IMG/VR virus record: IMGVR_UViG_3300049433_000067 | Coordinates: 1-56,247 of that record | Direction: 5' to 3' (one strand) | Source: a virus | Length of the DNA: 56,247 nt | In this document: piece by piece, positions 9,673 through 50,672 of the stretch | How the letters are laid out: each line of letters starts with the position of its first letter | Numbering within the stretch: the stretch's first letter is position 1 | Translations under genes and position numbers: made by a program | Notes under the pieces: generated by a model | Seen by the model: only the letters and a program-made list of their open reading frames with translations | The model's database searches: none | Told to the model about the DNA's origin: nothing

Positions 9673-10001
9673 CCTGTGACTCTCTTCAGGGGCACCACGA
9701 CGCCGGCCGTCCAGCCGGTGAAAGGCGAATTCCACACGTTCGCGACCCCGTCGACCTCATATCGCATCCCCCGGACCATCACGGCGTCGACGGACCCGAC
9801 GACAGTGCCGGCGGGGAGGAGCACCTGCGGCTGCGTCGAGACTTGATCCATGCCGCCGATGCGTTCGAACCCGATCGCCGGGTCGAACGCACCGGTTACG
9901 ACGGTCGGCACGTCGTGGTAGACGTCGTTGCCGTCCACGTCCGGCGTCGGGTCAAGCACACGGCGCAGCAGCGTGACCGGCTCCCCATACAGGAAGCTCA
10001 T
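9669..10001 (-). CDS. Head-tail stopper-like connector
   Basis: A 110-residue beta-barrel-like protein (YGEPVTLLRRVLDPTPDVDG; VMVRGMRYEVDGVANVW). Order and length match the SPP1 gp16 or HK97 stopper proteins that close the head exit channel before tail joining. The final MRYEVDG-type strand is common in this family. Its start overlaps the stop of the adaptor gene by 4 bases. Confidence 0.7.
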   Translation of the reverse strand: MSFLYGEPVTLLRRVLDPTPDVDGNDVYHDVPTVVTGAFDPAIGFERIGGMDQVSTQPQVLLPAGTVVGSVDAVMVRGMRYEVDGVANVWNSPFTGWTAGVVVPLKRVTG

Positions 10002-10543
10002 TCCGCGCCCGCATCAGGATCGACATCCGGGATGATGATCGGCGGGAACCCGATCGGGATCCGGCCGACAACCCGCCCACCCTGCGGGATGAGGATCTTC
10101 GGCCGCGGTATCCCCACCCGGAAACTGCTGGCTACCGTAGCCGGGACAGCCGGCCGCAACTGCTCAATGTCCGCCTCGGTGACCTGCAGCGAACCCCGCA
10201 CGTCGGTGCCGGTCTTGTCATACCGGTTGACGTAGGTGCCGGACCGGCTGAACGGGCCAGCGGCCTCCGATGCCGACGCGAACCCATCCGGGTTGACCAG
10301 GAACCGCTTCACCACCGTCGCGACCACATCAGCGACGATCAGCGGATCCAGCGCCGCCGGATCCGTCGAGTCGGCCTGGAACAACGCGATCCGCGCATCG
10401 AGGTCGAATGGGCACTTCTGGATGAGCCGCGCCGCGGCCTTATCGATCAGGTTCGAGACACGGACCCGCTCGTCCGTGGTGAGGGGCCGCCAAATGTCGG
10501 CGACGTCGTCCGGGTCAGCGAACGGATAGTCGCTGCTCGACAT
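9998..10543 (-). CDS. Head-to-tail adaptor
   Basis: A 181-residue protein with an AGGTAGGGGG ribosome-binding site. The first 100 residues are helical (DPDDVADIWRPLTTDERVRV; VADVVATVVKRFLVNP), typical of the gp6/gp15-like adaptor ring that binds the portal. The tail after residue 140 is Pro/Ile-rich (FPPIIIPDVDPDAG) and probably flexible. It is the first connector after the capsid and its SAP-like partner. Confidence 0.75.
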   Translation of the reverse strand: MSSSDYPFADPDDVADIWRPLTTDERVRVSNLIDKAAARLIQKCPFDLDARIALFQADSTDPAALDPLIVADVVATVVKRFLVNPDGFASASEAAGPFSRSGTYVNRYDKTGTDVRGSLQVTEADIEQLRPAVPATVASSFRVGIPRPKILIPQGGRVVGRIPIGFPPIIIPDVDPDAGAE

Positions 10544-17958: not shown

Positions 17959-18363
17959 TCAGAACGCAGTGGTGTCCGGGGTGAGGGGGTGGGGGGGTTG
18001 TACCCCTGGGTCCGTTTTTCCCGGCTTGATTCCGCGCGCTTGGAGGGCCTCGCCCCGTGACTTCTCGGCGTGGCAGTTGTGGCATGCGCCTTGCCGATTG
18101 GCCAGGTCGTGGAGGTCGCCGCCTTGGGACAGCGGGGTGATGTGGTCGTCTTCGGTGCTGATGCGGGTGCAGTTGGGTCCGTTGATGCGGCAGTGCGGGT
18201 CGCGTGCGAGCACGATCTCGCGTTCGGTTCGTGACTGGCGTGTGCTGCCGCGTCCCCACGTGCCCGCTGCACGCTGCTCTGCTGTGTGCTCGGGGCAGTA
18301 GGTCTGGGCTACCACGCGGGTCTGACAGTGGAGGCGTCCGCACTTCTTCGGGGCGCGTGGCAT
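17959..18363 (-). CDS. HNH endonuclease beside terminase
   Basis: A 134-residue protein. An N-terminal CGRLHCQTRVVAQTYCPEH zinc-type motif is followed by the HNH core: CRINGPNC, then DDHITPLSQGGD, then NRQGACHNCHAEKSRGE. HNH proteins beside the terminase assist specific cleavage of the packaging site in many long-tailed phages, so a role in cos cutting is likely. It is the first late gene in this cluster. Confidence 0.88.
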   Translation of the reverse strand: MPRAPKKCGRLHCQTRVVAQTYCPEHTAEQRAAGTWGRGSTRQSRTEREIVLARDPHCRINGPNCTRISTEDDHITPLSQGGDLHDLANRQGACHNCHAEKSRGEALQARGIKPGKTDPGVQPPHPLTPDTTAF

Positions 18364-18984: not shown

Positions 18985-19548
18985 TCAGCCTGCGCGTTGC
19001 ATCGCGCGGTAGACGGTGGCGCGGGCCACGCCGAACATCTCGGCTAGCTCGCTCGTGGTGTGTCGGCCCTCGCGGTGCAGGTCGACCAGATGCTTCTCCT
19101 GGACCGGGCGCAGCTTCGGCTGCTTGCCGCGGAGCCGGCCCTTCGCCTTCGCCAGCTGCATGCCCTCTCGGGTGCGCATCCGGATCAGGTCGGCCTCGAA
19201 CTCGGCGACCATGGCGAGCGCGTTGAACAGCAGCCGCCCGATCGGGTCGTGGGGGTCGTGGAGGGAGCCGCCGATGTTGAGTGTGACGCCGGCTGCGGTG
19301 AGTTCCTCGACGATGTTGCGGGCGTCCGGGACGGAGCGGGCGAGCCGGTCGAGTTTGGTGACGGCGAGGGTGTCGCCTTCGCGGCAGGCGGCGAGCGCTT
19401 CGCGTAGGCCTGGGCGGGCGCGGTTGGTGCCGGTGAGGCCGTGGTCGACATAGATGCGGTCTGGGTCCACCCCGAGCCGGGTGAGGGCCTCACGTTGGAT
19501 GGTGAGGTCTTGCTCGTCGGTGGAGACGCGTGCGTAGCCGATCATCAT
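18985..19548 (-). CDS. Serine recombinase, resolvase/invertase type
   Basis: A 187-residue protein of the usual small serine recombinase length. The catalytic strand GYARVSTDEQDL carries the nucleophile Ser9 and Arg7; the second catalytic region LAVTKLDRLARS (about residues 80 to 91) has the DRLARS box. The long E helix (GRLLFNALAMVAEFEADLIR) and a C-terminal helix-turn-helix (TSELAEMFGVARATVYRAMQ) are present. Such enzymes resolve plasmid dimers or invert DNA segments. The 220 bases upstream hold repeated GCCCGTTA-type motifs that could be its site. No invertible tail-fibre cassette is evident, so a resolvase role seems likelier. Confidence 0.9.
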   Translation of the reverse strand: MMIGYARVSTDEQDLTIQREALTRLGVDPDRIYVDHGLTGTNRARPGLREALAACREGDTLAVTKLDRLARSVPDARNIVEELTAAGVTLNIGGSLHDPHDPIGRLLFNALAMVAEFEADLIRMRTREGMQLAKAKGRLRGKQPKLRPVQEKHLVDLHREGRHTTSELAEMFGVARATVYRAMQRAG

Positions 19549-24704: not shown

Positions 24705-25244
24705 TCACTGGTCGTGCTCCGCTCTCGATCTCCAGTCGGCGGCCCACTCGAAGTCGAAGCTGGCGCTCGCCGCGCACTGCTCGTCCTCGGGCCGGTCACC
24801 CACGAACAGCCCCATATAGGGCGGGTAGTACTCGTCAGGGTGGAGTTCTTTCAGCCCGTGGATCGCCTCCACCACGGCGCCAGCGGAGGGCTTGCGGCAC
24901 CAGCAGCGCGCCATCTCCGGCGTCGATGCGGACGGGTGGTGCACGCAGAAACAGATCTTGTCGAACAGCCCGCCGGTCTGTCGGTGGGTCTCCAGCATCG
25001 CCGCAGCGACGTCGACGTAGGAGACGATGCCCAGCGCGATGCCGCCCTGATTGGAGACGCCGACGATGCGGCCGCCACCGTCACGCCAGCGGCGCATCAT
25101 CACGACCGCCTCGGGGAACACGCGAACGTCGCCGGGGCCGTTGACGAACCGGCCGATCGGGTCGTCTTTCCCTTCGCGGACGGTGCCGTCCAGGTCGAGG
25201 CAGAGCACCGGCGTCGCGCGTTCGCTGACGATGTCCGTGGTCAC
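24705..25244 (-). CDS. HAD-superfamily phosphatase, polynucleotide 3'-phosphatase-like
   Basis: A 179-residue single-domain protein. VLCLDLDGTVREGKDD (about 13 to 28) is the DxDGT nucleophile motif; VGVSNQGGIALG is motif II with Ser/Asn; RKPSAGAVVEAI carries the motif III Lys; FVGDRPEDEQCAASA is motif IV with GD and DE. A four-Cys/His set (CFCVHHPS, CWCRKP) matches HisB-type and polynucleotide kinase-phosphatase HAD members that bind zinc. It may repair 3'-phosphate ends or act on a sugar phosphate. GTG start overlaps the upstream gene. Confidence 0.8.
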   Translation of the reverse strand: MTTDIVSERATPVLCLDLDGTVREGKDDPIGRFVNGPGDVRVFPEAVVMMRRWRDGGGRIVGVSNQGGIALGIVSYVDVAAAMLETHRQTGGLFDKICFCVHHPSASTPEMARCWCRKPSAGAVVEAIHGLKELHPDEYYPPYMGLFVGDRPEDEQCAASASFDFEWAADWRSRAEHDQ

Positions 25245-25441
25245 GAGGCCACCGCCGTGCGGGTCTCGACAACGACACGCACCTGCTCGACGCACTCCGG
25301 GCACAGCACCACGTTGTGCACCGGCCGCCCCGAGATCGTGACCGTCGACCAGCCCTCGGGCATCTGCCGGGCAGCACCCCGGAACGCGGTCACCCACTCG
25401 GCGAACGCCGGGCAGCGGGTGCAGCTGACAAGGTCGGTCAT
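25241..25441 (-). CDS. Small zinc-ribbon protein, 66 aa
   Basis: Two CxxC pairs (SCTRCPAF and LCPECVEQV) 38 residues apart form a likely zinc ribbon. It sits between helicase and phosphatase genes with 4-base overlaps on both sides, suggesting coupled translation. Role unknown; perhaps a replication accessory. Confidence 0.65.
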   Translation of the reverse strand: MTDLVSCTRCPAFAEWVTAFRGAARQMPEGWSTVTISGRPVHNVVLCPECVEQVRVVVETRTAVAS

Positions 25442-26691
25442 GCTTCCTCCCAGGGAAGTCGGCGCCCAGCAGACAGGCGCTTAGGCCATTCGCGTTGCGC
25501 CCGCGGCCCACGCCACGGGGTGAACAGGGACTCACGCATCACCTGCTGAATGTGGCGTTCCTCCGCTGTCGGCTTCCCGTCGAACGGGACGGGGTGCAGG
25601 CAGTAGCCGAACTCGGGCCACCGCTTCCACAGGGACGCACCGAAGGGACGTAGCAGGTTGCCGTGCGGGCCGTCGGAGTGGGGCGTGTGCGCCTCCGTGA
25701 CCAGGGCGGCACCGGAGATGGCACGCATCCGGTCCAACACCCCCGCCAACTTCCTAGCCGGGCCCTCGTCGTTGGGGTTGTCCTCATGCAGCTGGTAGAT
25801 GGGGCCGATCAGGATCAGGTCCGGCTTCACCCGTTCGATCTGCGCGTACCTCGCTGCTGCCTCGCGGGGGTCGAGCAGGTTCGTCGGCCCGAGTTGCTCG
25901 AGGATCAGCATCCCCGGCTTCGGTAGGTGCCCGATCTGGTCGAGGGTGTCGAGCAGCTTCGTGTACTCGTCCTGGTTGATCTCTTCCGGGTTCTCCGCGT
26001 CGAGCACCAGCACCCGGACGGAGGGGATGCCTTCGGGGCGGAACGGGTGCAGCCCGCCGGCGGCGCAGCACGCGATCTGCCGCAGCAGCGTCGACTTCCC
26101 GTACCCCTCCGGGGCGGTCAGGATGATCCGGTTCTTCCTCGCGAGCAGACCGGGGATGACGTACTCGGTGTCGTGCCTCTTGCGGCGCACGAAGTCCAGG
26201 ACGTCGACCTCGGTGACGTCGCTCGACTGCATCCGCTGAACGACACGCAGCTTCGCGATGATGCCCTCAGCGTGGGCCACCGGTTCGGGGGTGGTGGGCT
26301 GGTCATGCTCGGCGATGGCCCGGACCAGCGTCTGCCGCAACGCCCGCGCTGTGGCCGCTTCGATGATCAGACCGCAGTGGTAGGACACCGACTCGGCGTC
26401 GTGGGAGTACGGGCCCGTCGCGAGTGCCATCACCGCATCGGAGTGGTCCCGGCCCAGCTTCACCGCACGCGACCCGACCGCTGCGGGTTCGATCTTCGCC
26501 CGCGCCTCGTCCAAGCTGCGCATGATCGTCCACAGGTCCGCGTGGATTCCCCAGTACCAGTCGCCGTCGGACAGCACCCGGGCCGCCGCCCGGTAGGCGT
26601 CCTCGTTCCACATCGCAGCGGCGAGCACAGCCCGTTCCGACGTGACCGCCTGCGCCGGACGTACCTCGTCGACATCGTCGGGCATCGTCAC
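25438..26691 (-). CDS. DnaB-type replicative helicase with RepA-like ATPase core
   Basis: A 417-residue protein. Residues 14 to 125 resemble the DnaB N-terminal helical domain (SERAVLAAAMWNEDAYRAAA). Residues 180 to 370 form a RecA-fold ATPase: Walker A APEGYGKST (193 to 201), Walker B VLVLDAEN (226 to 233), then LTEAHTPHSD-like sensor residues (VTEAHTPHS). The core looks more like AAA_25/RepA than classical DnaB. It would load at or unwind the phage origin. It follows the helix-turn-helix initiator-like gene by a 4-base overlap, a common helicase/loader pairing. Confidence 0.82.
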   Translation of the reverse strand: MTMPDDVDEVRPAQAVTSERAVLAAAMWNEDAYRAAARVLSDGDWYWGIHADLWTIMRSLDEARAKIEPAAVGSRAVKLGRDHSDAVMALATGPYSHDAESVSYHCGLIIEAATARALRQTLVRAIAEHDQPTTPEPVAHAEGIIAKLRVVQRMQSSDVTEVDVLDFVRRKRHDTEYVIPGLLARKNRIILTAPEGYGKSTLLRQIACCAAGGLHPFRPEGIPSVRVLVLDAENPEEINQDEYTKLLDTLDQIGHLPKPGMLILEQLGPTNLLDPREAAARYAQIERVKPDLILIGPIYQLHEDNPNDEGPARKLAGVLDRMRAISGAALVTEAHTPHSDGPHGNLLRPFGASLWKRWPEFGYCLHPVPFDGKPTAEERHIQQVMRESLFTPWRGPRAQREWPKRLSAGRRLPWEEA

Positions 26692-29093: not shown

Positions 29094-29686
29094 GAAACAG
29101 CCCCCCAAATCAACAGGCAGCAGCCGAACGGAGGCCGCTCTTTGGGGCCGATCTCCGTTTGGCCCTTGCGTAGGAACCGCATCCGGCCGGGTAGGAACTC
29201 GACGCCGAACTCAGGCCACCGGCCGCGGCATGCCGGCTCGACTAGGTCTTGCCACCACGCCTGCTCGGTGCGGTTCGCGGGCAGTAGCATCACGATCAGC
29301 TCGGCGCGCTCGTTGTTCCACGCGTACCACGCCTTCTCGAGCCATGGCCGGATGTTGCTGTAGGGCGGGTTGCACCAGACGCGTTCGCCGGCCCACGGCT
29401 GCGCTAGCCCGTCGTCCTCGATCGAGTAGAACCGCTCGCACTTCGCGTTGTGCGCAGCAGCAGCCACGTCCACCGTGAAGCCGAACCGCTCGTGCAGCGG
29501 GCCGAACTCCTCCGGTACGGTCGCCCGGTCGTCGATCTCGTCCGTCGCTGCCGCCCTGAATCGGGTCGTCTGCTTGGGGTGACCCACGCCAACTTGCAAT
29601 AGCAGGATCCCGGTCGCCTCCCGGGGTGGCAGCGCTGCCTCGTTGATCACGAGTCGCGCCTTCCCTGCTGGGGTTGGGTCACCCAT
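29090..29686 (-). CDS. Phage-type DNA N6-adenine methyltransferase (Dam-like)
   Basis: A 198-residue protein. ERFGFTVDVAAAAHNAKCER followed by WAGERVWCNPPYSNI is the signature of the phage_N6A_Met family: motif IV NPPY at about residues 106 to 109. It transfers methyl from SAM to adenine N6, probably protecting phage DNA from host restriction. The first 11 codons lie in a 40-bp repeat shared with the next gene, so this N terminus may have been acquired secondarily; the catalytic domain starts near residue 60. Confidence 0.88.
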   Translation of the reverse strand: MGDPTPAGKARLVINEAALPPREATGILLLQVGVGHPKQTTRFRAAATDEIDDRATVPEEFGPLHERFGFTVDVAAAAHNAKCERFYSIEDDGLAQPWAGERVWCNPPYSNIRPWLEKAWYAWNNERAELIVMLLPANRTEQAWWQDLVEPACRGRWPEFGVEFLPGRMRFLRKGQTEIGPKERPPFGCCLLIWGAVS

Positions 29687-29698
29687 CACGACACCGCC
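29659..29698. repeat. 40-bp direct repeat, left copy
   Basis: A perfect 40-base match to 30522 to 30561. It covers the last codons of one gene and the TGATG start and first codons of the Dam-like gene. The two copies bracket the D12 methyltransferase gene, as if that gene had been inserted or duplicated by recombination at gene junctions. Confidence 0.95.
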
Positions 29699-30549
29699 CC
29701 GAGATCAGCAGCGGAGAAGAGGTGCTCATCCCCGAGTGTCCGGTTAGACCAGAGGACTTCGGTTCGGTTGGCCCACGTGCCGCCCTGCCCGGTCGATGCG
29801 GCGAAGGTGTGCCTGTGCCAGTCCGCGTACAAGTCGGCGTCGTATAGGTCGGACGGGTACCCGGACAAGACGACCGCAGCCCGGGCCGCATGCAACGCGT
29901 CGGCGAGCTCGCGGTGCTCGGTCTCGGTGCGCATCTCGTGGACGTAGCCGTCCCAGCTGCGTGAGCGGGTGCCGCCGAGATAGGGCGGGTCGACGTACAG
30001 CAGCACATCCGGCTTGGCGCCGTAGGTACCGATCAGGTCCAACGCGGGCGCCGATTCCAGCGACACCGCCGATAGCCGCTCAGCGGCCGGGAGCATCCGC
30101 TCGAGATAGCCCAGGAGATAGTCCGGCATCGACGTGCCGCCGGCGGGCTGGACGTAATGCCGCCACCCAGTGCGGCGGCGTGTGCCCGCCCGGCCTTGCG
30201 TCAGTTGCACCCAGACGCGGCGCGCTACCTCGAGCTCAGCGCAGTCGTCGAGGTCGTAGGCGCCGTGGTGCTCGGCCCGGGAGTGCGGGGTCAGAGCGCA
30301 CACGCGGGCGAGCTCGGCGGGCTGCTCGCGCAGCACCCGCCAGAACGTCATCAGGTGCCCGTCGAGGTCGTTGACGGTCTCCATCGCGCTCGCCGGCTTG
30401 GCCAGCAGCACCGCGAGCGAACCGCAGTACGGCTCGACGTAGTGGGCATGCTTCGGGAGTAGCGCTGCGATCATCGGCGCCGCTGTCGTCTTCCCACCGA
30501 AATACGAGATCGGCGGCTTCACCTTCCCTGCTGGGGTTGGGTCACCCAT
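29686..30549 (-). CDS. D12-class DNA adenine-N6 methyltransferase
   Basis: A 287-residue protein. FGGK (17 to 20) is motif X, VEPYCGSLAVLL (about 38 to 49) motif I for SAM, NDLDGHLMTFWRVLR the following helix, and VDPPY (186 to 190) catalytic motif IV. The order matches the MethyltransfD12/Dam family of alpha-type enzymes. The expected length is 250 to 300, so it appears complete. Target sequence cannot be read from the protein. It starts one base inside the upstream stop and lies between two 40-bp repeats. Confidence 0.92.
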   Translation of the reverse strand: MGDPTPAGKVKPPISYFGGKTTAAPMIAALLPKHAHYVEPYCGSLAVLLAKPASAMETVNDLDGHLMTFWRVLREQPAELARVCALTPHSRAEHHGAYDLDDCAELEVARRVWVQLTQGRAGTRRRTGWRHYVQPAGGTSMPDYLLGYLERMLPAAERLSAVSLESAPALDLIGTYGAKPDVLLYVDPPYLGGTRSRSWDGYVHEMRTETEHRELADALHAARAAVVLSGYPSDLYDADLYADWHRHTFAASTGQGGTWANRTEVLWSNRTLGDEHLFSAADLGAVS

Positions 30550-30561
30550 CACGACACCGCC
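30522..30561. repeat. 40-bp direct repeat, right copy
   Basis: Identical to 29659 to 29698. It covers the end of the C5 methyltransferase gene and the start of the D12 gene. Confidence 0.95.
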
Positions 30562-39157: not shown

Positions 39158-39634
39158 ATGCTGGCCAAACTCGCCATGACCGTCGTCGTGCTCGCCATGG
39201 CCGCCGCGTGCAGCTCCGGGAAGCACACCGCCGCGAGCACACCGACACCCAGCCCGAGCAGCGCCTCGTCGACGCCCATCACGGACACGCCGACAGCTGA
39301 GCCCTCGCCGGCCATCGACGAGACCGGCCGCACCACCTGCGGCATGTTGAAGGCGAACCGCACACTGCAGTCAACGGTGGGGTTCATCATCGTCGCCGGG
39401 GTCGTGAACGAAGGCGACGTCCTGCCCACCGTCGACGAGTTGCAGCTCGAAGCGTCCGAGGCACCGGCCGAGTTCCAGCACGGCTTGACCAGCCTCGCTG
39501 CCGTGTTGCAGGAGATCGACGACTCGCTCGCGGCCGGCGGCGGGGACAGCATCGACACGTCATCCGTGCAGCCCAACGTGAACCTGCTGGTCGGGATGTG
39601 CCGCGCGCGGGGCGTGCCGATCCCTATGGAGTAG
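39158..39634 (+). CDS. Predicted secreted lipoprotein, 158 aa
   Basis: ATG at 39158 with GGGGGG upstream. A signal peptide (MLAKLAMTVVVLAMAAAC) ends in a lipobox (LAMAAAC), so the mature protein starts at Cys18 and is lipid-anchored outside the membrane. A Ser/Thr/Pro linker is followed by a folded domain (RTTCGMLKANRTLQSTVGFI; ELQLEASEAPAEFQHGLTSL) with two Cys that may pair. Prophage lipoproteins often block superinfection or change host surface. It overlaps the convergent integrase by 11 bases. Confidence 0.75.
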   Translation: MLAKLAMTVVVLAMAAACSSGKHTAASTPTPSPSSASSTPITDTPTAEPSPAIDETGRTTCGMLKANRTLQSTVGFIIVAGVVNEGDVLPTVDELQLEASEAPAEFQHGLTSLAAVLQEIDDSLAAGGGDSIDTSSVQPNVNLLVGMCRARGVPIPME

Positions 39635-40949
39635 CCACCCGCCGGAACGCCACCACCACATCGCTGTCGGTGTCGTCGAGCCACTCCAGGGACCGCTCGA
39701 CCGCATCGTTCACCGCGTCGTCCATCTCGGGCATCTCGTGCCCGTACCGGTCGACGGTGACCTGGATGGAGGCGTGCCCGAGCCGCTTCGAGATCACCGG
39801 CAGCGACAGGCCCTCGGCGATGAGCAGCGACGCGTAGGAGTGCCGCAGGTCATGCACCCGCGGCTCCTTCGTCAGCACGCCTTCGCACTGGCACGGGCGC
39901 GCGGCCGGCGGGCGGATCCGTTTACCGGTCTCGGCCTGCCGGGCGAGTCGCTTCGCCTTCTCCCCGACGGTCTCACCGCCTGCCTCGACGTGCTCGTCGC
40001 AGACGGAGGCCCGGGCGACGGCCGGGATCCACGCGTTGTCGTGGAACGTCGAGTTCAGCAGCTGCCCACCGAACCGGGCCGGGAACACCAGATCGTCCGC
40101 CCGGCGGCCACCGGCCAGGGGGCGTAGCGCGGCAACCAGCCGCGGGGAGAGGGTGAGCTTGCGCCGCGCACGGCGGGTCTTCGGCTCACCGACCGAGTAG
40201 GTGCCGTCGTCCTGCCGCTTCCACGCCCGCACCACCCGCGCCGCCGGCCGTTTCCCGTCGAGGACCAGGTCACCGACCCGCAGCGCGGTCGCCTCGCTGT
40301 ACCGCAGCCCCGTCGCCCACAGCAGCAGCGTCAGCGGCCGGTAGAACTCCGGGACGTGCCGGTAGATGAGCGCGAACTCGGCCGGGGTGAGGAACACCAT
40401 CTCCTCGGCCTTCACGTCGGGCAGCTCCCGCAGCTTCGACGCGAACGGGTTGTGGTCACACACCGGCGGCCGGTGCGTCATCCCGTCGGACATGATCGAT
40501 GACACCAGTCCGTGGACGTTCTGGATGGTTTTCGCGGCGAGCTCGGCGGCGATCAGCTGGTCGAGCCAGGTCGCGACGTGGGTCGCGGTGATGCCGTCGA
40601 CGGGGAGATGCCCGAGGTGCGGGTGGACGTGCCGCTTGAGGTCGCGCCGGTAGTCGGCCTTGGTGCGGTCGTTGGCCTTGGTGCGCAGGCTGATGGCTTG
40701 CTCGGCCCATTCGCGGAACGTGATGCCGGCGCCGGTCTTGGCTTCGCCGGTGTAGCCGTGGCCCTTGATCCAGCCGTGCGGCCACCGGTTGCCGGACCCT
40801 TCGACGAGTCCCCTGAACCGGTCGGCCTCCTGTGCGGTGACGAACAGTTCGGTCTGCCGGTCGGCGCGGTCGGCTTGGCGCCAGTACACCCGCCACGTCG
40901 GGCCGGTGGTCTTGTTTTCCCGCTTCTGGATTCCCGCCATACCGGGCAT
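39624..40949 (-). CDS. Tyrosine integrase
   Basis: 441 residues from the ATG at 40949 (or 438 from 40940); an open frame reaches further upstream but crosses attP and is not coding-like. Residues 70 to 160 are the core-binding domain (REWAEQAISLRTKANDRTKA). Catalytic residues are R216 (GLRYSEATALR), H366 and R369 (HDLRHSYASLL), H392 (LGHASIQVTVD) and Y402 (DRYGH). A Cys-containing insert (CDEH at about 317, CQCEG at 353 to 357) precedes the C-terminal box, typical of actinomycete element integrases. The gene is adjacent to attP. Confidence 0.93.
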   Translation of the reverse strand: MPGMAGIQKRENKTTGPTWRVYWRQADRADRQTELFVTAQEADRFRGLVEGSGNRWPHGWIKGHGYTGEAKTGAGITFREWAEQAISLRTKANDRTKADYRRDLKRHVHPHLGHLPVDGITATHVATWLDQLIAAELAAKTIQNVHGLVSSIMSDGMTHRPPVCDHNPFASKLRELPDVKAEEMVFLTPAEFALIYRHVPEFYRPLTLLLWATGLRYSEATALRVGDLVLDGKRPAARVVRAWKRQDDGTYSVGEPKTRRARRKLTLSPRLVAALRPLAGGRRADDLVFPARFGGQLLNSTFHDNAWIPAVARASVCDEHVEAGGETVGEKAKRLARQAETGKRIRPPAARPCQCEGVLTKEPRVHDLRHSYASLLIAEGLSLPVISKRLGHASIQVTVDRYGHEMPEMDDAVNDAVERSLEWLDDTDSDVVVAFRRVATP

Positions 40950-41028: not shown

Positions 41029-41130
41029 AGTGGAGGTGGCGGGAATCGAACCCGCCTGAACGGCCCGCGAACGCTCGCCTCCGTCATATCAGCCCAGCAA
41101 ATACGGGCAGTGCAGCACGGCGCCCGACAG

Positions 41131-41209: not shown

Positions 41210-43123
41210 TCAGCCGGCGAGCTCGGCCGGGTCCTCTGTAGCCGACCACACACCGTGCCGGACCTGCACCGCGAGGCCGTCCTGTTCGAGGCGGCGCAGC
41301 GTGGACGACACGGTCGGCAGCGGCGCCCCGACCCGCTCGGCCAGCGCCCCGGTGCGGATCTGGGCGTGCTCACGGAGCTGGGCGAGGATCGCGTCGCGGG
41401 TCGACCGTGCGACGTCGTCAATGGGGGCGAGCTCGATGACGGCGGCCGGTTCCCGTTCGTCGTCGTCGCGGCGGGCGCGCCACGACGTGTAGTCCTCCCC
41501 GGCGTCCTCGGCTGCCGCCTGGTCGAGCGTCACCGACGGCGCCGGGCAGGTCGCCCAGTAGTACGGGTCCTCGACGTACTGCCCGCGCATCGGCGACACC
41601 CGGCCACCGGCCGACGCGACATACCCGAGCCCAGCCGTCGACGTGCCGTCGGGCCACTGCTCAGGCAGGTTCACCGGGTCGACCGGCAGATCCTTCGGCA
41701 TTCCCATCTTCCCCGACAGCCGGTCCGACGTGCGGAACATGACGATGTTCATCGACGACACCATCGACCGGATCGTGACGTTCCCGCCGAGCTCCCCCAC
41801 CGACGGGACCTGCGCGACGACGTCGACGGACACCCCCAGCTTGCGGCCCTTCTTCGCGATCAGGGCGATGATCCCCACACAGTCAGGGTCGTTCATGACG
41901 TCCGGGGATTCGTCGATCACGATCGTCAGCTGCGGCTCGCCCGGGGTCGGGTCGAACGCGGCGAGGCCACGCCGCTGCCGGCCCTGCTCATCGGTCCACA
42001 CGCGGCGGGCGCGGCGCTTCTTCCGCCCGTTCATGACCCGCTCGGCGGCCTGCAGCATGCGGCGGATCTCCGGCACCGACGGCGCGAACCAGTCGGCGGC
42101 GTCCTGCCAGTCGGGGACGGAGACGCCTTCCTCCGGGTCGGCGAGCCACAGCACGACGACACCGGAGTGGCGGATCTCGGTGCACAGCAGGTTGATGAAC
42201 GTCGACTTCCCGGAGCCGGTGGTGCCGGCGATCAGCCCGTGGCAGGCGCCCGAGCCGGGGGTGAACAGCCGCCAATAGGCGGTGGTGCCGTCGGCGTACA
42301 CGCCGATCGGGAACTGCCCAGTAGCGAGGTCGAGTTGCGGGCCGGTGAACATCTGCGTCGTCTGCAGAGGGTTACGGGTCAGCACGAGCAGCCGCGCCCG
42401 GTGTGCTTCCCCGGTGGCTGGTGCTTCGATGACGACCGATGTGCTGGGCACGCCGTAGGCGGAGGCGATGCGGCCGGCGGCGCTGATGGCCTCGATCGTG
42501 GTCTGCTTCCCGCCGACCAGCGCGATCGACGCGGACCAGCCGGTCGCGACCGCCGCGACGTCGTACAGCCGCGAACCGGGCAGCGCCCCGCCCGGGCCAG
42601 CGACCCGCTGCGCCCACACCTCGAACCGGTCGTCATCGTCGGGGATCTGCGTCCGGATCCGGTGATGCCACCACCACGGCACCGCGGCGGCGATGAACAG
42701 GGCGGCGAGCCAGCCCGGCATCGGCGGCCCGAACCCGATGACCGCGGTGGCCTGCAACCAGCCGAAACCGCCGAGGAACACGCCGGCGGCGTAGACCCGC
42801 TCGGCCGTCCGCCAGCCACGCCGGTGGGCACGCCACCAGGTGAGCAGCCCGAGCGGCAGCGTGAACAGTACGACGGTGTTCGGGCCGTGCGGGCTGACCG
42901 CGAACACCACACCCGCGACATACAGCAGCCCGGTAGCGACGAACGGGGCTAGCGGCCGGCGGCGGGCGAAGGAATGCCGGGCGAGCGCGCGGCTGGCCCG
43001 CCACGTCACCCGGGCTACCCCCCGCTTCCGGCCCGGCGTGCGGGTCAGGGCACGGTTCTGGGCGTGCAGCGCTCGGCGCACTGCAGCGTCGATAGCCGGG
43101 TCGGGGGCTGGCTGGCTGTGCAT
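41210..43123 (-). CDS. TraB-type FtsK/SpoIIIE-like conjugative DNA translocase
   Basis: 637 residues, with a GGAGGA ribosome-binding site. Membrane helices lie in residues 56 to 150 (FVATGLLYVAGVVFAV; AAGVFLGGFGWLQATAVIGF; GWLAALFIAAAVPWWW). The ATPase has Walker A GTTGSGKST (300 to 308) and Walker B LTIVIDE (399 to 405). A C-terminal winged helix (residues 575 to 627, LREHAQIRTGALAERVGAPL) matches the DNA-reading domain of actinomycete TraB proteins. TraB alone moves double-stranded plasmid DNA between hyphae. It differs from chromosomal FtsK in length and architecture. Its neighbours are Spd-like membrane proteins. Confidence 0.88.
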   Translation of the reverse strand: MHSQPAPDPAIDAAVRRALHAQNRALTRTPGRKRGVARVTWRASRALARHSFARRRPLAPFVATGLLYVAGVVFAVSPHGPNTVVLFTLPLGLLTWWRAHRRGWRTAERVYAAGVFLGGFGWLQATAVIGFGPPMPGWLAALFIAAAVPWWWHHRIRTQIPDDDDRFEVWAQRVAGPGGALPGSRLYDVAAVATGWSASIALVGGKQTTIEAISAAGRIASAYGVPSTSVVIEAPATGEAHRARLLVLTRNPLQTTQMFTGPQLDLATGQFPIGVYADGTTAYWRLFTPGSGACHGLIAGTTGSGKSTFINLLCTEIRHSGVVVLWLADPEEGVSVPDWQDAADWFAPSVPEIRRMLQAAERVMNGRKKRRARRVWTDEQGRQRRGLAAFDPTPGEPQLTIVIDESPDVMNDPDCVGIIALIAKKGRKLGVSVDVVAQVPSVGELGGNVTIRSMVSSMNIVMFRTSDRLSGKMGMPKDLPVDPVNLPEQWPDGTSTAGLGYVASAGGRVSPMRGQYVEDPYYWATCPAPSVTLDQAAAEDAGEDYTSWRARRDDDEREPAAVIELAPIDDVARSTRDAILAQLREHAQIRTGALAERVGAPLPTVSSTLRRLEQDGLAVQVRHGVWSATEDPAELAG

Positions 43124-43165
43124 GGTTCCTCCGGCTCGTTCCAGCGATGGGGCTGTCGACTAGGC

Positions 43166-43205
43166 CACCGGCGGGGACCGCGGGGGGTCGGTGGCCCCGC
43201 CGGTG
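43166..43205 (-). terminator. Hairpin between the Spd-like and TraB genes
   Basis: Perfect 11-bp arms CACCGGCGGGG and CCCCGCCGGTG with an 18-base loop, just after the leftward membrane coil gene (ends 43223) and before the TraB start. It may limit read-through into the TraB gene. Confidence 0.5.
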
Positions 43206-43222
43206 ACGTACTCGGCAGCCGC

Positions 43223-44074
43223 TCAGGCCTGGTAGAACGACTTGTCGGCTGCGTGCGGGGTAGCGGCGTGCGCCTCCTGCATCAGGGAATGCCGGGACTG
43301 CACACCCTTCAACGCGGTCTCGGCCTGCGCGAGCTGCGCGTCGGCCGCGGACGCCCGCAGGTCGGCGGCCTTGGCGCGCTGCCCAGCGGTCTCGGACAGG
43401 GCACCCACGTCGGCGATCGTCGCCTGGTCGAGGTCGAGCGCCTCCAGCGAGGAGACCATGTTGTCGAAGCGGGTGACGTTCTCGGCGGCGCGTTTCATGT
43501 CGGCCTGCGCGTCCTCGAGCTCGGAGGCGGCGTCGGTGGCGATGTCGTTGAGTTCGCGGAGCAGCTGGTCCATGGTGAGTACTTCTCCGCCGGTGCTGCT
43601 GGTGATGGTGGCCATCGGTTCGGTTCCTTCCGTAGTGGTGTCGATCGGGTCGGTGTACGGGGTGCTGTCCCGGTCCGGTCCGGGGTCGGTGAAGGCCTCG
43701 GTCCCGGCTGGGCGGGACACATCCGGGACCGAGACGTCTGAGGCCGGCTCGCGCCGGATGTACGGGAGCGGGCCTGTCTTCTGCTCCGCGAACTGGGCGG
43801 CGTCGCGGTGCCGCTGGCGAGCCTCGGCCCACTCCGGCCACTTGCCAGCCAGCCACCGGCCGCCCGCGACGCCGGCAGTGACGCCAAGGCTGACGCCGCC
43901 GATCACGCCAGCTACGACACCACCGACCAGCCCCGCGGCAACACCGGCCACGACTCCCGCGGCGAGGCCGGCGGCGGCGCGGAACGGTGCGATCGCGTCC
44001 GGTTGCCGCTTCATCCAGCGGGAGATCGCGTACGCGGCCGCGGCCACGATCAAAATGCCAATGACTGCTTCCAT
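43223..44074 (-). CDS. Membrane protein with Gly/Ala helices and C-terminal coiled coil, 283 aa
   Basis: ATG at 44074 with an AAGGAG site. An N-terminal helix (MEAVIGILIVAAAAYAISRW), then Gly/Val-rich membrane segments (AAGLAAGVVAGVAAGLVGGV, SLGVTAGVAGG), a soluble acidic linker, and a C-terminal coil from about residue 154 (LLRELNDIATDAASELEDAQ). An internal ATG at 43615 has its own GGAAGGAAC site and would give a soluble 130-residue coil form. Adjacent to TraB and Spd-like genes, a role in intramycelial spread is inferred. Confidence 0.65.
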   Translation of the reverse strand: MEAVIGILIVAAAAYAISRWMKRQPDAIAPFRAAAGLAAGVVAGVAAGLVGGVVAGVIGGVSLGVTAGVAGGRWLAGKWPEWAEARQRHRDAAQFAEQKTGPLPYIRREPASDVSVPDVSRPAGTEAFTDPGPDRDSTPYTDPIDTTTEGTEPMATITSSTGGEVLTMDQLLRELNDIATDAASELEDAQADMKRAAENVTRFDNMVSSLEALDLDQATIADVGALSETAGQRAKAADLRASAADAQLAQAETALKGVQSRHSLMQEAHAATPHAADKSFYQA

Positions 44075-44088
44075 CGGGATCAAGCTCC

Positions 44089-44568
44089 TTATGCGAGGCC
44101 GAAGGCCTGGCTGATGCCCCACGCAACTACCGCGACGAGGGCTGTGACTGCGGTGTAGGCGGCGTGGCCGAGCGGGCCGGGAATGGTGCTGACGCTGACC
44201 GGGACGAGCACAGCGAGCAGCAGCGTCCAGTTGTCGACCTTGCTGTCCTTCAGCCGCACAATCAGCACGAACGTCGCGATGCCACCGAGCAGCCCGGTTA
44301 CGGCTGTGCCGGTCCATCTGGTCGTCACGTTCGCGGCGGCCTGGTTGGCCCAGTCGACGACCGAGCGGAGCCAGGCGCCGACCGGCGTGCCGAGCATTCC
44401 GGCCGCACCAGTCATGAGCAGCAGCACGGTCAGCCGTGGGGCGTGGTGGCCTGTGAACCACAGGCTGCCTGCGACGGCCAGGGCGACCAGGCCGATCAAG
44501 GCGGACACGGTGCCGTTCAGGTGCAGGCTGTTCAGGTCGGGTGCCGTGGCAGCGGCCAATTGGATCAT
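44089..44568 (-). CDS. Spd-like polytopic membrane protein, 159 aa
   Basis: Four membrane helices (VSALIGLVALAVAGSLWFTG; RLTVLLLMTGAAGMLGTPVG; TAVTGLLGGIATFVLIVRL; WTLLLAVLVPVSVSTIPG) plus a final one (TAVTALVAVVAWGISQAFGL). An AAGGAG ribosome-binding site precedes the ATG. Small polytopic proteins of this type are encoded beside traB in actinomycete conjugative elements, where spd genes are needed for spread through septate hyphae. Name by composition and context, not motif. Confidence 0.65.
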   Translation of the reverse strand: MIQLAAATAPDLNSLHLNGTVSALIGLVALAVAGSLWFTGHHAPRLTVLLLMTGAAGMLGTPVGAWLRSVVDWANQAAANVTTRWTGTAVTGLLGGIATFVLIVRLKDSKVDNWTLLLAVLVPVSVSTIPGPLGHAAYTAVTALVAVVAWGISQAFGLA

Positions 44569-44912
44569 GATCGTGCTCCTTCGGGGTGGGCCGCCTCGCG
44601 TACGCGTGCGCGCGGGTCACGTCCGCGCGCGCCGCCTGTGTGCGTTGGGGCCTCGAAATTGGCAGACGGTCGTGCGAAATTTGCATGCGAATATGGGTCG
44701 GGGACCAGCCCGTCTAGTAGCCCCGTGAGCAGGCGCCACGCTGCGACCTGCTCGCTGGCGGGCAGCTTCCGGATGCGTGTCCGGACGCCTTGATAGGCGA
44801 GGTGCGACTGCGCGGACGGCGTCGTCGCCGCGGCCCTACGCTCAGCCCAGAATTCGGCTTGCCGCTGGTCGCGGCGCTGAGCCCGCTCCTCGCCTCGGGT
44901 CGGCTTGGTCAT
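44565..44912 (-). CDS. Basic hypothetical protein of the transfer operon, 115 aa
   Basis: Very basic N terminus (KPTRGEERAQRRDQRQAEFW), a helical core (VRTRIRKLPASEQVAAWRLL), Arg-rich C terminus. It lies between the DUF2637 and Spd-like genes with 4-base overlaps. DNA binding is possible from charge alone. Confidence 0.58.
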   Translation of the reverse strand: MTKPTRGEERAQRRDQRQAEFWAERRAAATTPSAQSHLAYQGVRTRIRKLPASEQVAAWRLLTGLLDGLVPDPYSHANFARPSANFEAPTHTGGARGRDPRARVREAAHPEGARS

Positions 44913-45649
44913 CGCCCCGCCTCCACTGCGGCCGACTGCTCGGCCGCGTTCCACCGGCGGATCAGCTTGCGGCCGTAGCCGTCCTTCGTGCCCCCGACCC
45001 GGTCAAGGTCGGCACCGGTGGGTGTCCGGCCAGCGGTACGTTCCCGGTCGTAGTGCTCCCGCATGGCCCGCTCCGCCCCGCCGCGTCCGGCCGGGACCAG
45101 CTCGAGCCGACGGGCGGGACTGGCTGGCACCGCATGGCGGGCTTCGGGGCGGGCCTGCGGCCGGGACTGCGTGCGGGCCTCAGCCCGGGCCGTCGTCCGG
45201 GACCGGTCCGCGCTGACCAGTACCGCCGTGTGCACGACCGCGCCGAGCATCAACGGCGGGACAGCCGCGACCGCGACGACTACCCAAGCCCGGGCCGAGG
45301 ACGGGTCGACGTGGTAGACGGCGTTGCCGGCCATCGACGCGGCGATCGCGGCCAGCGCGTTCGCCCGCGCCCAGTCTCGGGTGCCTTTGCTGGTCCCGGA
45401 CCGCAGCCACACCCGGGTCGCGGTCGCCGCGTAGGCGTCCACCGCGATCGGGAACAGCCACGCCAGCCGCAGCGGGCCGACTTCGCCGCGCACACCGGCG
45501 AGGGCCGCGAGGCCGGCGAGGGCCGCGAACGACATGACTGCGGCCGCCGCGCCGACCACGAGCAGGCCGGTCGCCGTGGCCCGGTCACCGTGCCGGGACT
45601 GACCAGTTCCCTCACTCGGGGATACCCTTGCGGGCACAGAGGTTGTCAT
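44909..45649 (-). CDS. DUF2637-type membrane protein (SpdB2-like)
   Basis: 246 residues. Four membrane helices in residues 25 to 150 (TGLLVVGAAAAVMSFAALAG; RLAWLFPIAVDAYAATATRV; WARANALAAIAASMAGNAVY; WVVVAVAAVPPLMLGAVVHT) with the HVDPS turn, the pattern of DUF2637 proteins. These occur next to traB in Streptomyces plasmids and integrative elements. The C-terminal soluble part (AMREHYDRERTAGRTPTGAD, GYGRKLIRRWNA) is a winged-helix-like unit. First gene of the leftward transfer operon. Confidence 0.82.
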   Translation of the reverse strand: MTTSVPARVSPSEGTGQSRHGDRATATGLLVVGAAAAVMSFAALAGLAALAGVRGEVGPLRLAWLFPIAVDAYAATATRVWLRSGTSKGTRDWARANALAAIAASMAGNAVYHVDPSSARAWVVVAVAAVPPLMLGAVVHTAVLVSADRSRTTARAEARTQSRPQARPEARHAVPASPARRLELVPAGRGGAERAMREHYDRERTAGRTPTGADLDRVGGTKDGYGRKLIRRWNAAEQSAAVEAGR

Positions 45650-45664
45650 ACCGGCGACGGTATG
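45647..45664. promoter_or_regulatory. Palindrome over the DUF2637 start codon
   Basis: CATACCG GCGA CGGTATG, perfect 7-bp arms, covers the ATG of the leftward transfer operon and lies 60 bases before the divergent XRE gene. A likely operator through which the XRE protein controls transfer genes. Confidence 0.55.
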
Positions 45665-45725
45665 TAGCCGCTGGCGCGGGCGGGACTGACCAGAAGTGCC
45701 GCTCTAGTCGAGGAGACGTGACGCG

Positions 45726-46781
45726 GTGGCCACATCCGGGCGTAAACCACTCACCGGGGGTGAGGCCCTGTCCGGACGGATCGCCGGAACGGTACTTCAG
45801 GCGGTCCGGCAGGCCGCCGGGCTGACCCAGGCGGACCTCGCCGAGCACGCCGCGACGGGCCTCACCACGGTGCAGGGATGGGAGTCGGGACGCCGCCCGC
45901 TGATCAACGTCCGGCACGCGGAACTGGGCCGGCTCCGGAGGCTGCTGCAGACGAGCGGCGCCGACCCGAAGTTGCTGCGGCTCCTCGACCCGGCGCTGAC
46001 CGCCGACACGATCCTCGCCGAGATCAGCACCCCCGACCCGGAGCTGCATCCGCTCGCGCTGCTCGTCCCCGACCGCACGCTGACCGAGCTGCTGGCGTGG
46101 CCAATCACCGGCACCCCACCACGGCAGCTCCGCGACACCCGCGCACACCTACCAGTCGGCGCCGGCGTACGTGAGCATCTCGTCGCCCAACTGCGGGAGC
46201 TCGCCGAACGCGCCCCCGCCTCCACGACGGCCGGGGCGATGCTGCGCCGGCAGGCCCAGTTCCTCATCGCCAGCCACCCCGGGTTCCGGGAATGGGCCAC
46301 CGACGCGATCCGGGCAGACCTACGCCGAGCCAGCCTCGGCGACTGGTCCGTGCAGTGGCCAGTCGCCCGCTCCCATGCCGTCTCATCGGCGATCGCCGGC
46401 GACCTTGAGCCGCTGCACCGGTTCGCCGACGAAGGCCTAGCCACCGAGCAGGGCACCGCAGCGAACCTCACCTACTGGGCGTACTGGGTCGGTGAGATCA
46501 GCGGTCAGTGGGCCAACGACTCGGAGATGCTCCGCGACCAGGCCTGGTCTGGTGAGACGCTGCTGGAATCGCTCACCGAGGGCATCGTCAACGCGCCGTA
46601 CCGGGAGCTGTGCGCGCACACGTTGTGGGCTTTGATCCGGGTCAAGCGTGGACTGGTAGCTAGCCCGGGCGCGGCCGCGAAGATCGGAACAGCGATCGAC
46701 GCTGCCCTAGCTGACGGTATGGTCCCCGAAGCGGCCCGCCGGAAGCTGGAGCAGGTCGACTACCTCGTGAGGAGCCGCTGA
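45726..46781 (+). CDS. XRE regulator with helical C-terminal domain, 351 aa
   Basis: GTG start 10 bases after GAGGAG. Residues 15 to 65 are an XRE helix-turn-helix (GRIAGTVLQAVRQAAGLTQA; LTTVQGWESGRRPLINVRH). The rest is helical and TPR-like (LREL AERAPASTTAGAMLRR style; LHRFADEGLATEQGTAANLT; YWAYWVGEISGQWANDSEML), a form common in actinomycete mobile elements. It is divergent from the transfer operon and translationally coupled to the HD gene by TGATG. Likely a transfer or lysogeny switch sensing a ligand or partner protein. Confidence 0.8.
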   Translation: MATSGRKPLTGGEALSGRIAGTVLQAVRQAAGLTQADLAEHAATGLTTVQGWESGRRPLINVRHAELGRLRRLLQTSGADPKLLRLLDPALTADTILAEISTPDPELHPLALLVPDRTLTELLAWPITGTPPRQLRDTRAHLPVGAGVREHLVAQLRELAERAPASTTAGAMLRRQAQFLIASHPGFREWATDAIRADLRRASLGDWSVQWPVARSHAVSSAIAGDLEPLHRFADEGLATEQGTAANLTYWAYWVGEISGQWANDSEMLRDQAWSGETLLESLTEGIVNAPYRELCAHTLWALIRVKRGLVASPGAAAKIGTAIDAALADGMVPEAARRKLEQVDYLVRSR

Positions 46782-47380
46782 TGGACGACGCCGCGATCAT
46801 CGGGTTCGCCTACGAGGCCGGCTACCTGAAGCGGCTCCCCCGCGCTGGGTGGCTGCTCGGCGGTGTCCGTACGCCGGAGTCCGTCGCCGAGCATTCGTTC
46901 CGGGTCGGGGTGATCGCGTACGCGCTGGCCGTCCAGGAGGGCGGCAACCCGGACCGTGCCGCGGCTCTCGGCCTGTTCCATGACCTGCCCGAGACCCGGA
47001 TCGGTGACGTGCCCTCCGTCGGGCGCGGCTACGTCACCACCACCCGGCCGCACTCGATCATCCTCGACCAGGTCGCAGGCCTCCCCGACGAGCTGGCCTC
47101 GCATATCGTGGCGCTCGTCGACGAGCATGAGTCGGCGAAGACGGCGCAGGCGACCCTCGAAGCACGCTGCTCACGCGACGCGGACAAGCTCGACTGCCTG
47201 CTGCAGGCACGGGAGTACGAAGCCGAGGGGTACCGGCAGTTGGGGCCGTGGGTGTCGACGATGGTGAGCGCGGTGACGACCGAGACCGGTAAGCGGCTCG
47301 CTGTCGCGGCGCAGGAGATCCCGTCGAGCGTCTGGTGGGACCGGTTCGCCGCCTCCTACGGCATGACCCGGGAGGGCTGA
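46781..47380 (+). CDS. HD-domain phosphohydrolase, YfbR-like
   Basis: 199 residues. H38 (ESVAEHSFRVGVIAYALA), H67-D68 (GLFHDLPETRIGD) and Asp133/135 (CSRDADKLDCLLQA) form the metal-binding HD signature. The EHSFRV and HDLPE/RIGDVP motifs are typical of 5'-deoxynucleotidase-like HD_3 proteins. It may hydrolyse nucleoside monophosphates or a signal nucleotide. Coupled to the XRE regulator, it could act as its partner. HD-XRE pairs are found in actinomycete integrative elements. Confidence 0.83.
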   Translation: MDDAAIIGFAYEAGYLKRLPRAGWLLGGVRTPESVAEHSFRVGVIAYALAVQEGGNPDRAAALGLFHDLPETRIGDVPSVGRGYVTTTRPHSIILDQVAGLPDELASHIVALVDEHESAKTAQATLEARCSRDADKLDCLLQAREYEAEGYRQLGPWVSTMVSAVTTETGKRLAVAAQEIPSSVWWDRFAASYGMTREG

Positions 47381-47383
47381 GCA

Positions 47384-47632
47384 GTGGCTGCGAAACGCGT
47401 GACGCTGCGCCTGTACTGGCGGAAAACCAAGCAGGCCGAGGTCGACACGAACATCGACCTGGGCGACGAGAAGTACCTGCGGGAGAAGCTCGAGGAGATG
47501 GTGCTGGCGAAGCGCGGCACCCTGAAGCTGGACCTGTCGGAGTATTCGATGGTGGTGCATAAGCCGGGTGGCGGTGCGATCCAGCGGCGTGTGCTGGTGT
47601 TGCCGTCCGGCGCTACGCAGATCAAGCGCTGA
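47384..47632 (+). CDS. Hypothetical protein, 82 aa
   Basis: GTG start 3 bases after the HD gene stop. Basic/beta N terminus (RVTLRLYWRKTKQAEVDTNI), a central helix (DEKYLREKLEEMVLAKRGTL), and a final beta pair (GGAIQRRVLVLPSGATQIKR). Third gene of the XRE-HD unit; small accessory of unknown role. Followed by a bidirectional terminator. Confidence 0.62.
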   Translation: MAAKRVTLRLYWRKTKQAEVDTNIDLGDEKYLREKLEEMVLAKRGTLKLDLSEYSMVVHKPGGGAIQRRVLVLPSGATQIKR

Positions 47633-49471: not shown

Positions 49472-49797
49472 TCGCCGCTCACCGCAATCTGGCCCCTCAG
49501 CAACGTCGTCGCCGTATCGGTCGCCTGAACGTCGAACCCCAACCCGCCTGGCATCGCCGCCGTGACGACGTCGGTCAGGGACAACACGAGGCGCCCTGTC
49601 ACCGCGTCACTGGCGTCCACCGCGAACTCGAACGCGGTCTCCGACTTCCGGGTCGTGCGAGCCTCCGCTTTCCAGGTCGAGCCGTACACGGTCAGGTCGA
49701 CCGCTGTCAGGTCGGGCTTGTTGAACTGCACCGCAACGCTGTATCTGTCGCCGCGGTACACCTGTAGCGGCGTCGGCAGCACGACGGGCAGGCTCAT
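49459..49797 (-). CDS. Baseplate/fibre-associated beta-sandwich protein, 112 aa
   Basis: LPTPLQVYRGDRYSVAVQFN and LTVYGSTWKAEARTTRKSE match the start of BppU-type upper baseplate or Ig-like modules found before fibre genes. ATG overlaps the protease stop; the end overlaps the fibre start by 13 bases. Likely connects or folds the fibre. Confidence 0.62.
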   Translation of the reverse strand: MSLPVVLPTPLQVYRGDRYSVAVQFNKPDLTAVDLTVYGSTWKAEARTTRKSETAFEFAVDASDAVTGRLVLSLTDVVTAAMPGGLGFDVQATDTATTLLRGQIAVSGEWTR

Positions 49798-50672
49798 CGG
49801 TAGCCGTTCGCGGTCTTCCACGCGTCAAACGCGCCCCGCAGTCGCCCGGCCTTCGTCAGGTGAGAGAAGATCGTCTTCTCCCATGCGTCACCCGCAGCGA
49901 CGAGCGCCGCGTCAACCGCGCTCCCGGGTATCGGGACGGGCGCCGGTGCGGGGGACGTGATCGGCACGAACTGGGTGGCGTCGCCTTCTTCGCTGAGGAG
50001 CCGGTCGTAGTCGCCGTACTCAAACGTGAAGTACCCGGCATCCCCGTAGGTGTCGCCCCACGAGTTGACGGCGCGGAACGTCTTGTCGGCGACGTCGACA
50101 CCGACGAGCTCGAACTCGTGGCCACCGCGGACGGTCGCGTCCTTCGTGATCGACACGTATCCGGACGCGTCCGGGGAGTCGAACGAGTCGTACCAATTCA
50201 CGCCAGTGATCACAGGCCCGCTCTGTAGGGCGGTGATGACAGCGTCGAGGGACATCGCGTGCTGGTACCCGGAGATCAGGCCGGCGTTCTTCGCGGCCTT
50301 CGCGACGGACAATCCGTCCGAGCCCGAGTCGGTCGGGGGATATGTGCCGGAGTAAGAATCGAGCTTCGTGGCCGCGCTGTACAGCAGCACGGCCTCGGCC
50401 TCGTCCAGCGTCATCCCGACCTGCACATCCGCCTGCAGCGACGTCCAGAACGGGTCAGTGCCGAGCACCCCGCACGCCGCGTTGCCCGTGCACGAGCCGA
50501 GGTTCCCCTGGTCGAGCACGGGTGTCTTGCGGTCCCACACGACCGACTGAGCGAGCGCCGCGCGCGGCTTCACCTGATACGCGCGCGAACGCGGGTCGTG
50601 GTGGACGTGGCGGCCGAGGCGTTTCCCGTCGACCTGGAACTCGACGATGACCCGCCGGTGCAGATCGATCAC
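49794..50672 (-). CDS. Papain-like (C1A) cysteine protease
   Basis: 292 residues. The papain motifs are in order: DQGNLGSCTGNAACGVL with oxyanion Gln55 and nucleophile Cys61, GGHEFELVGVD with His185, and VNSWGDTYGDAGYF with Asn203. No secretion signal is present. The domain ends near 225; the C-terminal 70 residues include a Pro-rich linker (PITSPAPAPVPIPG) and a helical tail. It is encoded between holin and fibre genes, so it may be a virion protein that digests host surface or its own fibre, or may act in lysis. Unusual for a phage. Confidence 0.85.
   Translation of the reverse strand: MIDLHRRVIVEFQVDGKRLGRHVHHDPRSRAYQVKPRAALAQSVVWDRKTPVLDQGNLGSCTGNAACGVLGTDPFWTSLQADVQVGMTLDEAEAVLLYSAATKLDSYSGTYPPTDSGSDGLSVAKAAKNAGLISGYQHAMSLDAVITALQSGPVITGVNWYDSFDSPDASGYVSITKDATVRGGHEFELVGVDVADKTFRAVNSWGDTYGDAGYFTFEYGDYDRLLSEEGDATQFVPITSPAPAPVPIPGSAVDAALVAAGDAWEKTIFSHLTKAGRLRGAFDAWKTANGYR

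Follow-up and report, generated by a model that had tools for sequence, protein, structure and literature searches.

Conjugation in actinomycetes relies on one FtsK-like motor protein, TraB, which transports double-stranded DNA (dsDNA) from donor to recipient without a relaxase (PMC9513070, PMC3218068), and Spd proteins spread the element through the recipient mycelium (PMC9513070). The actinomycete integrative and conjugative elements (AICEs) pSAM2 and pMR2 are relaxase-free systems that combine an integrase, a TraB-type motor and Spd-like genes with integration at a tRNA-like 3' end. In the plasmid-phage pZL12, phage and conjugal transfer are combined in one element (PMC3583192); with this precedent, a phage that also conjugates is not a new idea. 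Here we examine a stretch of 56,247 nucleotides (positions 1-56,247; hereafter the window), which is the entire, circularly permuted virus record IMGVR_UViG_3300049433_000067 and is an essentially complete temperate siphovirus of soil actinobacteria. It carries a block of TraB-type transfer genes at positions 41210-47632. On balance, we favour the reading that this block is a plasmid transfer module captured by the temperate siphovirus and kept as lysogen cargo beside the phage attachment site (attP), where it likely serves to pump the excised prophage circle as dsDNA.

The block and the adjoining attachment site comprise the following features, in which aa denotes amino acids, G001 is a separately assembled sister record (IMGVR_UViG_3300021976_000017, 57,168 bp) and G039 is a distant phage.

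41031..41075, no strand: probable attP core, matching the 3' end of the transfer-messenger RNA (tmRNA) gene ssrA and conserved in G001
41210..43123, minus strand: TraB-like FtsK-fold dsDNA translocase, 637 aa (Pfam, NCBIfam, plasmid matches, Foldseek)
43223..44074, minus strand: Spd-like protein, 283 aa (homologous to the plasmid and phage gene upstream of traB; hydropathy)
44089..44568, minus strand: membrane protein of 159 aa with about five helices, in the Spd/TraA position (homology, hydropathy)
44565..44912, minus strand: basic protein, 115 aa (aligns with plasmid and phage counterparts at the same position)
44909..45649, minus strand: DUF2637 membrane protein with a basic, helix-turn-helix-like tail, 246 aa (Pfam PF10935, 2.4e-11; PHROG 733)
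45560..45725, no strand: putative divergent promoter/operator region between the operon and the XRE-HD pair
45726..46781, plus strand: XRE-family regulator, 351 aa (Pfam HTH_31)
46781..47380, plus strand: HD-domain nucleotide phosphohydrolase, 199 aa, coupled to the XRE gene (Pfam HD_3, 4.4e-25)
47384..47632, plus strand: protein of 82 aa, 39% identical to its G039 counterpart

The minus-strand operon runs in the order DUF2637, 115-aa, 159-aa, 283-aa and TraB-like gene, and the XRE and HD genes, followed by the 82-aa gene, are divergent from it. A preliminary description of this DNA had listed a TraB-type translocase with membrane helices and a winged helix, a Spd-like protein, a DUF2637 protein and a divergent XRE-HD unit; all are present and intact, but the fifth operon gene (115 aa, 44565-44912) had been overlooked. 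Its start overlaps the stop codon of the DUF2637 gene (ATGA) and its stop overlaps the start of the 159-aa gene, so that the first three operon genes overlap through start-stop coupling. All reading frames of the block are intact, with GC content at third codon positions of 0.85-0.91 except in the 115-aa frame (0.72); the DUF2637 gene has an alternative, shorter start at 45559. The TraB-like protein has N-terminal membrane helices, Walker A (GTTGSGKS) and Walker B (TIVIDE) motifs and a C-terminal winged helix at residues 578-620, and Pfam recognises both FtsK_SpoIIIE (1.3e-7) and the winged helix. Its AlphaFold model is of moderate quality (mean predicted local distance difference test score, pLDDT, 59), and the top Foldseek matches are FtsK and TcpA of the Clostridium plasmid pCW3, the latter being the best match to the motor domain (6o1x, E 9e-10); TcpA, however, operates inside a multi-protein conjugation apparatus that the window lacks. 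The 283-aa protein has N-terminal membrane segments and a C-terminal coiled coil, and the 159-aa protein is 29-41% identical to plasmid and phage counterparts at the same position. The divergent promoter was placed from the gene layout because region 45560-45725 yielded no sigma-70-type promoter match; a short inverted repeat (CATACCG) lies within it around 45647-45664. The XRE protein is likely to be a kor-type controller of the module.

The closest relatives of the TraB-like protein are plasmid proteins. It matched 171 plasmid records along its entire length, with E values as low as 4e-67, and none of 50,697 phage records, and its best NCBIfam model is plasmid_TraB (1.1e-24, 87 bits). It has the membrane N-terminus, FtsK motor and winged-helix C-terminus of full-length plasmid TraB proteins. 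Homologues of the 115-, 159- and 283-aa genes precede TraB in identical order in Kitasatospora, Streptomyces and Micromonospora plasmids, and the operon order around the motor is as in the window in the plasmids of Kitasatospora NBC_01302, Streptomyces NBC_00841 and Micromonospora zamorensis and in Pseudonocardia pLS2-1. The regulator pair has plasmid relatives too: the XRE protein is 45% identical to a regulator of pLS2-1 and 49% to one on a Saccharothrix plasmid, the HD protein is 67% identical to plasmid copies including that of pLS2-1, and in pLS2-1 the XRE-HD pair likewise stands divergent from the TraB operon. The same genes in the same order are met again in plasmids and other phages, so the block is not a chance pattern. 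An origin from chromosomal FtsK or type VII EccC was rejected, as these match the motor alone and weakly (approximately 1e-5 to 1e-8); the outcome that the preliminary description had named as fatal to its proposal, close homologues that are all chromosomal FtsK proteins, was thus not what we found. The large plasmids differ from the window in having partition or replication genes, whereas the block is here part of a phage that integrates and has probable cos ends and a full set of morphogenesis genes.

The preliminary description had assigned this gene set to AICEs and plasmids alike. The plasmid part of that assignment stands, since plasmid operons have the same order, but the nearest sources, rather than being AICEs, are the large plasmids found in Streptomyces, Kitasatospora, Micromonospora and Pseudonocardia. 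Among the features that define AICEs, the window has a site-specific integrase and an FtsK/TraB transfer protein and lacks a replication protein. Pfam scans covering most early-region and larger proteins of the window returned no RepSA, RepAM or Prim-Pol, only a phage-type DnaB-like helicase, and ParA, other partition or replication genes and relaxases were likewise not found in the window protein scans, in agreement with the earlier statement that no plasmid replication protein or relaxase is present. We therefore rejected assignment as an AICE, because the defining Rep was not found in these scans; assignment as a phage-plasmid was rejected for want of ParA. Compared with pSAM2 and pMR2, the window yielded no RepSA, RepAM or Prim-Pol and has capsid, tail, lysis and terminase genes, and its TraB groups with the plasmid set in the tree. 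The pZL12 element and its phage ZL12 (NC_013420) share with the window homologous capsid, annealing protein and methyltransferase genes, but pZL12 has a plasmid lifestyle with ParA and ParB whereas the window integrates and has no ParA. The annotated FtsK/SpoIIIE-like gp71 of pZL12 was detected neither by the TraB profile nor by Pfam, and the pZL12 Tra protein was rejected as a direct relative of the window TraB because the profile did not detect it.

The position of the block was as previously proposed, between the tail genes and attP of an otherwise complete siphovirus. The attP site is most likely 41031-41075, which lies between the integrase gene and traB and is identical at 26 of 26 nucleotides (nt) to the 3' end of Nonomuraea ssrA by BLAST; an earlier search with a 33-nt attP pattern had given no exact match in 297 genomes, and the tmRNA 3' end was found by BLAST later. 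With attP at 41031-41075, the module would lie at the extreme prophage end beside the attachment site. In Mycobacterium abscessus prophages, toxin-immunity systems are carried at the extreme prophage end (PMC9934374), and the prophages with that end cargo have terminases related to the window's. More generally, cluster N mycobacteriophages and M. abscessus prophages carry cargo genes near the attachment site or in a central variable region (PMC7542560, PMC9934374). The terminases of the M. abscessus and other mycobacterial relatives listed are 52-58% identical to the window's, but the cargo there consists of defence or toxin-immunity genes, unlike the transfer module of the window. In G001, the gap between integrase and traB, which is empty in the window, contains a gene for a Ro60-like protein (24808-26418; L086:4808-6418) with TROVE and vWA_Ro60 domains (Pfam 1.8e-49 and 6.3e-63).

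The sister genome contains the entire block at 93.8% DNA identity. Ratios of nonsynonymous to synonymous divergence (dN/dS) between the window and G001 are 0.04-0.24 across the module genes (TraB 0.12, DUF2637 0.044, XRE 0.056), which is purifying selection as seen in these two sister phages. Decay of the block, against which the preliminary description had already argued from the coupled, intact frames, was rejected on these ratios. For most module genes dS is 0.19-0.29, similar to or slightly above that of the phage core (0.13-0.16). Given the identity with G001, dS near that of the core and the low dN/dS, the block has accompanied this phage in its descent and its sequence is constrained. 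The 159- and 283-aa genes (window 43223-44568) have a dS of only about 0.05-0.06, which suggests recent local recombination.

Related modules were found in at least four further actinophage records beyond the window and G001. When 50 terminase-related records were searched with TraB, two matched, G001 and G039. In G039, homologues of the 82-aa, 115-aa, 159-aa, 283-aa and TraB genes lie between the integrase gene and the lysis genes. A Pfam search identified DUF2637 and a shorter FtsK motor in the related phage G024, the best plasmid match of this motor being 48% identical. G057, G058 and G059 emerged when viral contigs were scanned with a TraB alignment; all three have a portal gene and the first two also a terminase. 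A further contig, G056, has the module but neither terminase nor portal; it was rejected as a phage and treated as a plasmid or AICE-like contig. In the TraB tree the phage copies are interspersed among plasmid copies: the window pairs with G001, G039 with a Micromonospora plasmid (support 1.0), G057 and G058 with contig G056, and G059 falls on the annotated-TraB side. This indicates at least three putative captures from plasmid-like sources, in addition to the different motor of G024; the count is a floor for the sampled records, not an estimate, and the deep branches of the tree are moderately supported.

Other regulators and accessory genes were seen near these modules. GntR-UTRA regulators resembling plasmid transfer repressors lie close to the TraB modules of G057 (L133:12346-13119) and G059 (L146:8156-8917), where the window has XRE instead, and two neighbouring Nudix-like genes lie near the module of G058 (86306-87083; L140). 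In pSAM2 the Nudix protein Pif acts against redundant transfer, and by analogy the HD protein of the window might have a role akin to that of Pif.

The window thus has TraB- and Spd-like parts together with excision and integration genes, from which we infer regulation, transfer, spreading and the phage circle as substrate as follows. The XRE protein would keep expression of the divergent DUF2637-115-159-283-traB operon low. Once the prophage has excised and formed a circle, a membrane TraB hexamer would bind the circle via its winged helix and pump it as intact dsDNA into a touching hypha. Spd-like membrane proteins would aid passage through septa and onward spread in the recipient, where the circle would be inserted at the tmRNA gene by the phage integrase.

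Several points weigh against this reading. The plasmid_TraB score of the motor is far under the 800-bit equivalog cut-off, so that the window TraB is, by its sequence, a family relative and not an equivalog of plasmid TraB. The preliminary description had proposed predicting a clt site; when the module was searched for 8-mers that occur repeatedly, no clt-like or otherwise informative cluster emerged, although divergent repeats could escape this search. No clt has been described for pSAM2 either (PMC9513070). AICEs depend on a Rep protein ahead of transfer, and the window has none dedicated to this. For transfer to be worthwhile, moreover, an integrated prophage of 56 kb has to excise and yet stay out of the lytic cycle. 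Finally, dN/dS rests on two close genomes only.

A broader proposal, to which we would give about an even chance, is that plasmid TraB modules have been captured repeatedly in several actinophage lineages, which make up a class of integrating phages that lack a plasmid replicon and can spread horizontally in two ways: as virions, and by single-motor dsDNA conjugation in which the excised prophage passes through hyphae that touch. If so, the border between phages and conjugative elements has been crossed repeatedly in actinobacteria; a lysogen could hand its prophage on to neighbouring cells with no lysis and no need for receptors or adsorption, and transfer machinery could reach new hosts inside virions. 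Modules small enough to be tractable in the laboratory would offer a testable system for the choice between particle and conjugation. The novelty lies in a siphovirus of the cos type that integrates and has no plasmid replicon, in a plasmid module that is syntenic down to its regulator pair, and in recurrence across several phage lineages; recurrent capture by integrating phages appears to be new.

Among the alternatives, it is possible, if unlikely, that the module acts within the lysogen's own mycelium only, TraB and the Spd-like proteins pushing excised phage circles across septa into adjacent compartments, which these would colonise, with no transfer between strains. The operon does consist mostly of Spd-like membrane proteins, and Spd proteins spread elements inside the mycelium (PMC9513070), but intramycelial spread normally comes after transfer, TraB is an intercellular pump in known systems, and the plasmid relatives retain it for transfer. 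We think it rather improbable that the block is cargo acquired through imprecise excision from a plasmid or AICE integrated at the same tmRNA site, and that it benefits the host or some other element (by chromosome mobilisation or exclusion of further elements, for instance) while contributing nothing to the spread of the phage. Although the block abuts attP, a classic place for cargo, no leftover plasmid genes (Rep, ParA) accompany it, its genes are intact and constrained, and similar modules have been acquired by unrelated phages, which suggests a benefit.

The same slot holds prophage defence genes in related phages (PMC7542560), and the translocase gave weak, motor-only PADLOC matches (mad8, HerA), as might be expected were it engaged in superinfection exclusion or another inter-phage conflict instead of transfer; we regard this as very doubtful, since the PADLOC matches are limited to the generic motor and the five-gene order is of the plasmid transfer operon type and not that of a defence system. 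Misassembly, or fusion of a plasmid contig to a phage, is scarcely credible: the only indication is the join of the window ends (56247|1), some 8.6 kb from the block, whereas the separately assembled G001, which speaks against the misassembly that the preliminary description had named as a refutation, has the block beside different tail genes, so that the junction was assembled independently, and other phages carry the module too.

The window has these further features of a temperate phage:

39624..40940, minus strand: tyrosine integrase (Pfam and PHROG 1), adjoining attP
17962..17971, no strand: probable cos site, 10 nt absent at the joined ends of G001

Searches with PHROG and Pfam identified terminase subunits, portal, protease, scaffold, HK97-type capsid, major tail protein, tape measure, tail fibre, holin, amidase, DnaB-like helicase, annealing protein, methyltransferases, integrase and several XRE repressors; the defining parts of a temperate tailed siphovirus (terminase, portal, capsid, tape measure, lysis, integrase and repressor) are therefore all represented. 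The ends of the window join within a tail gene, where a frame slip leaves a few bases uncertain. G001 aligns to the window in circular permutation, its first base being window 17972 and its last window 17961; it looks like a virion-type genome that opens at the probable cos site and includes the module. The terminase gene starts about 570 nt from the 10-nt gap, which is very likely cos because the genomes of cultured relatives open 545-588 nt before the terminase.

The 82-aa gene adjoins the module in the window, G001 and G039 and was not found with the plasmid modules examined. Its predicted beta-alpha-beta fold (AlphaFold, mean pLDDT 78) had no reliable match in the PDB. It was rejected as the counterpart of the small gene that precedes TraB in plasmids (12-16% identity); the real counterpart is the 115-aa reading frame.

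Close to cos, and additional to the tyrosine integrase, the window has a gene for a small serine recombinase of the resolvase/invertase type (18985-19545), whose G001 counterpart is inverted and 41% identical. The early region of G001 (L085, approximately 9963-10400) contains a 12-bp tandem repeat array around AACCGCGCCGCC, which has no counterpart in the window's list of 8-mer clusters. A direct repeat of about 40 bp (29659-29698 and 30522-30561) stands on both sides of the DNA methyltransferase gene at 29686-30522, which suggests a cassette open to gain or loss. The lysis/tail region includes a papain-family cysteine protease gene (49794-50672) with a homologue in pZL12.
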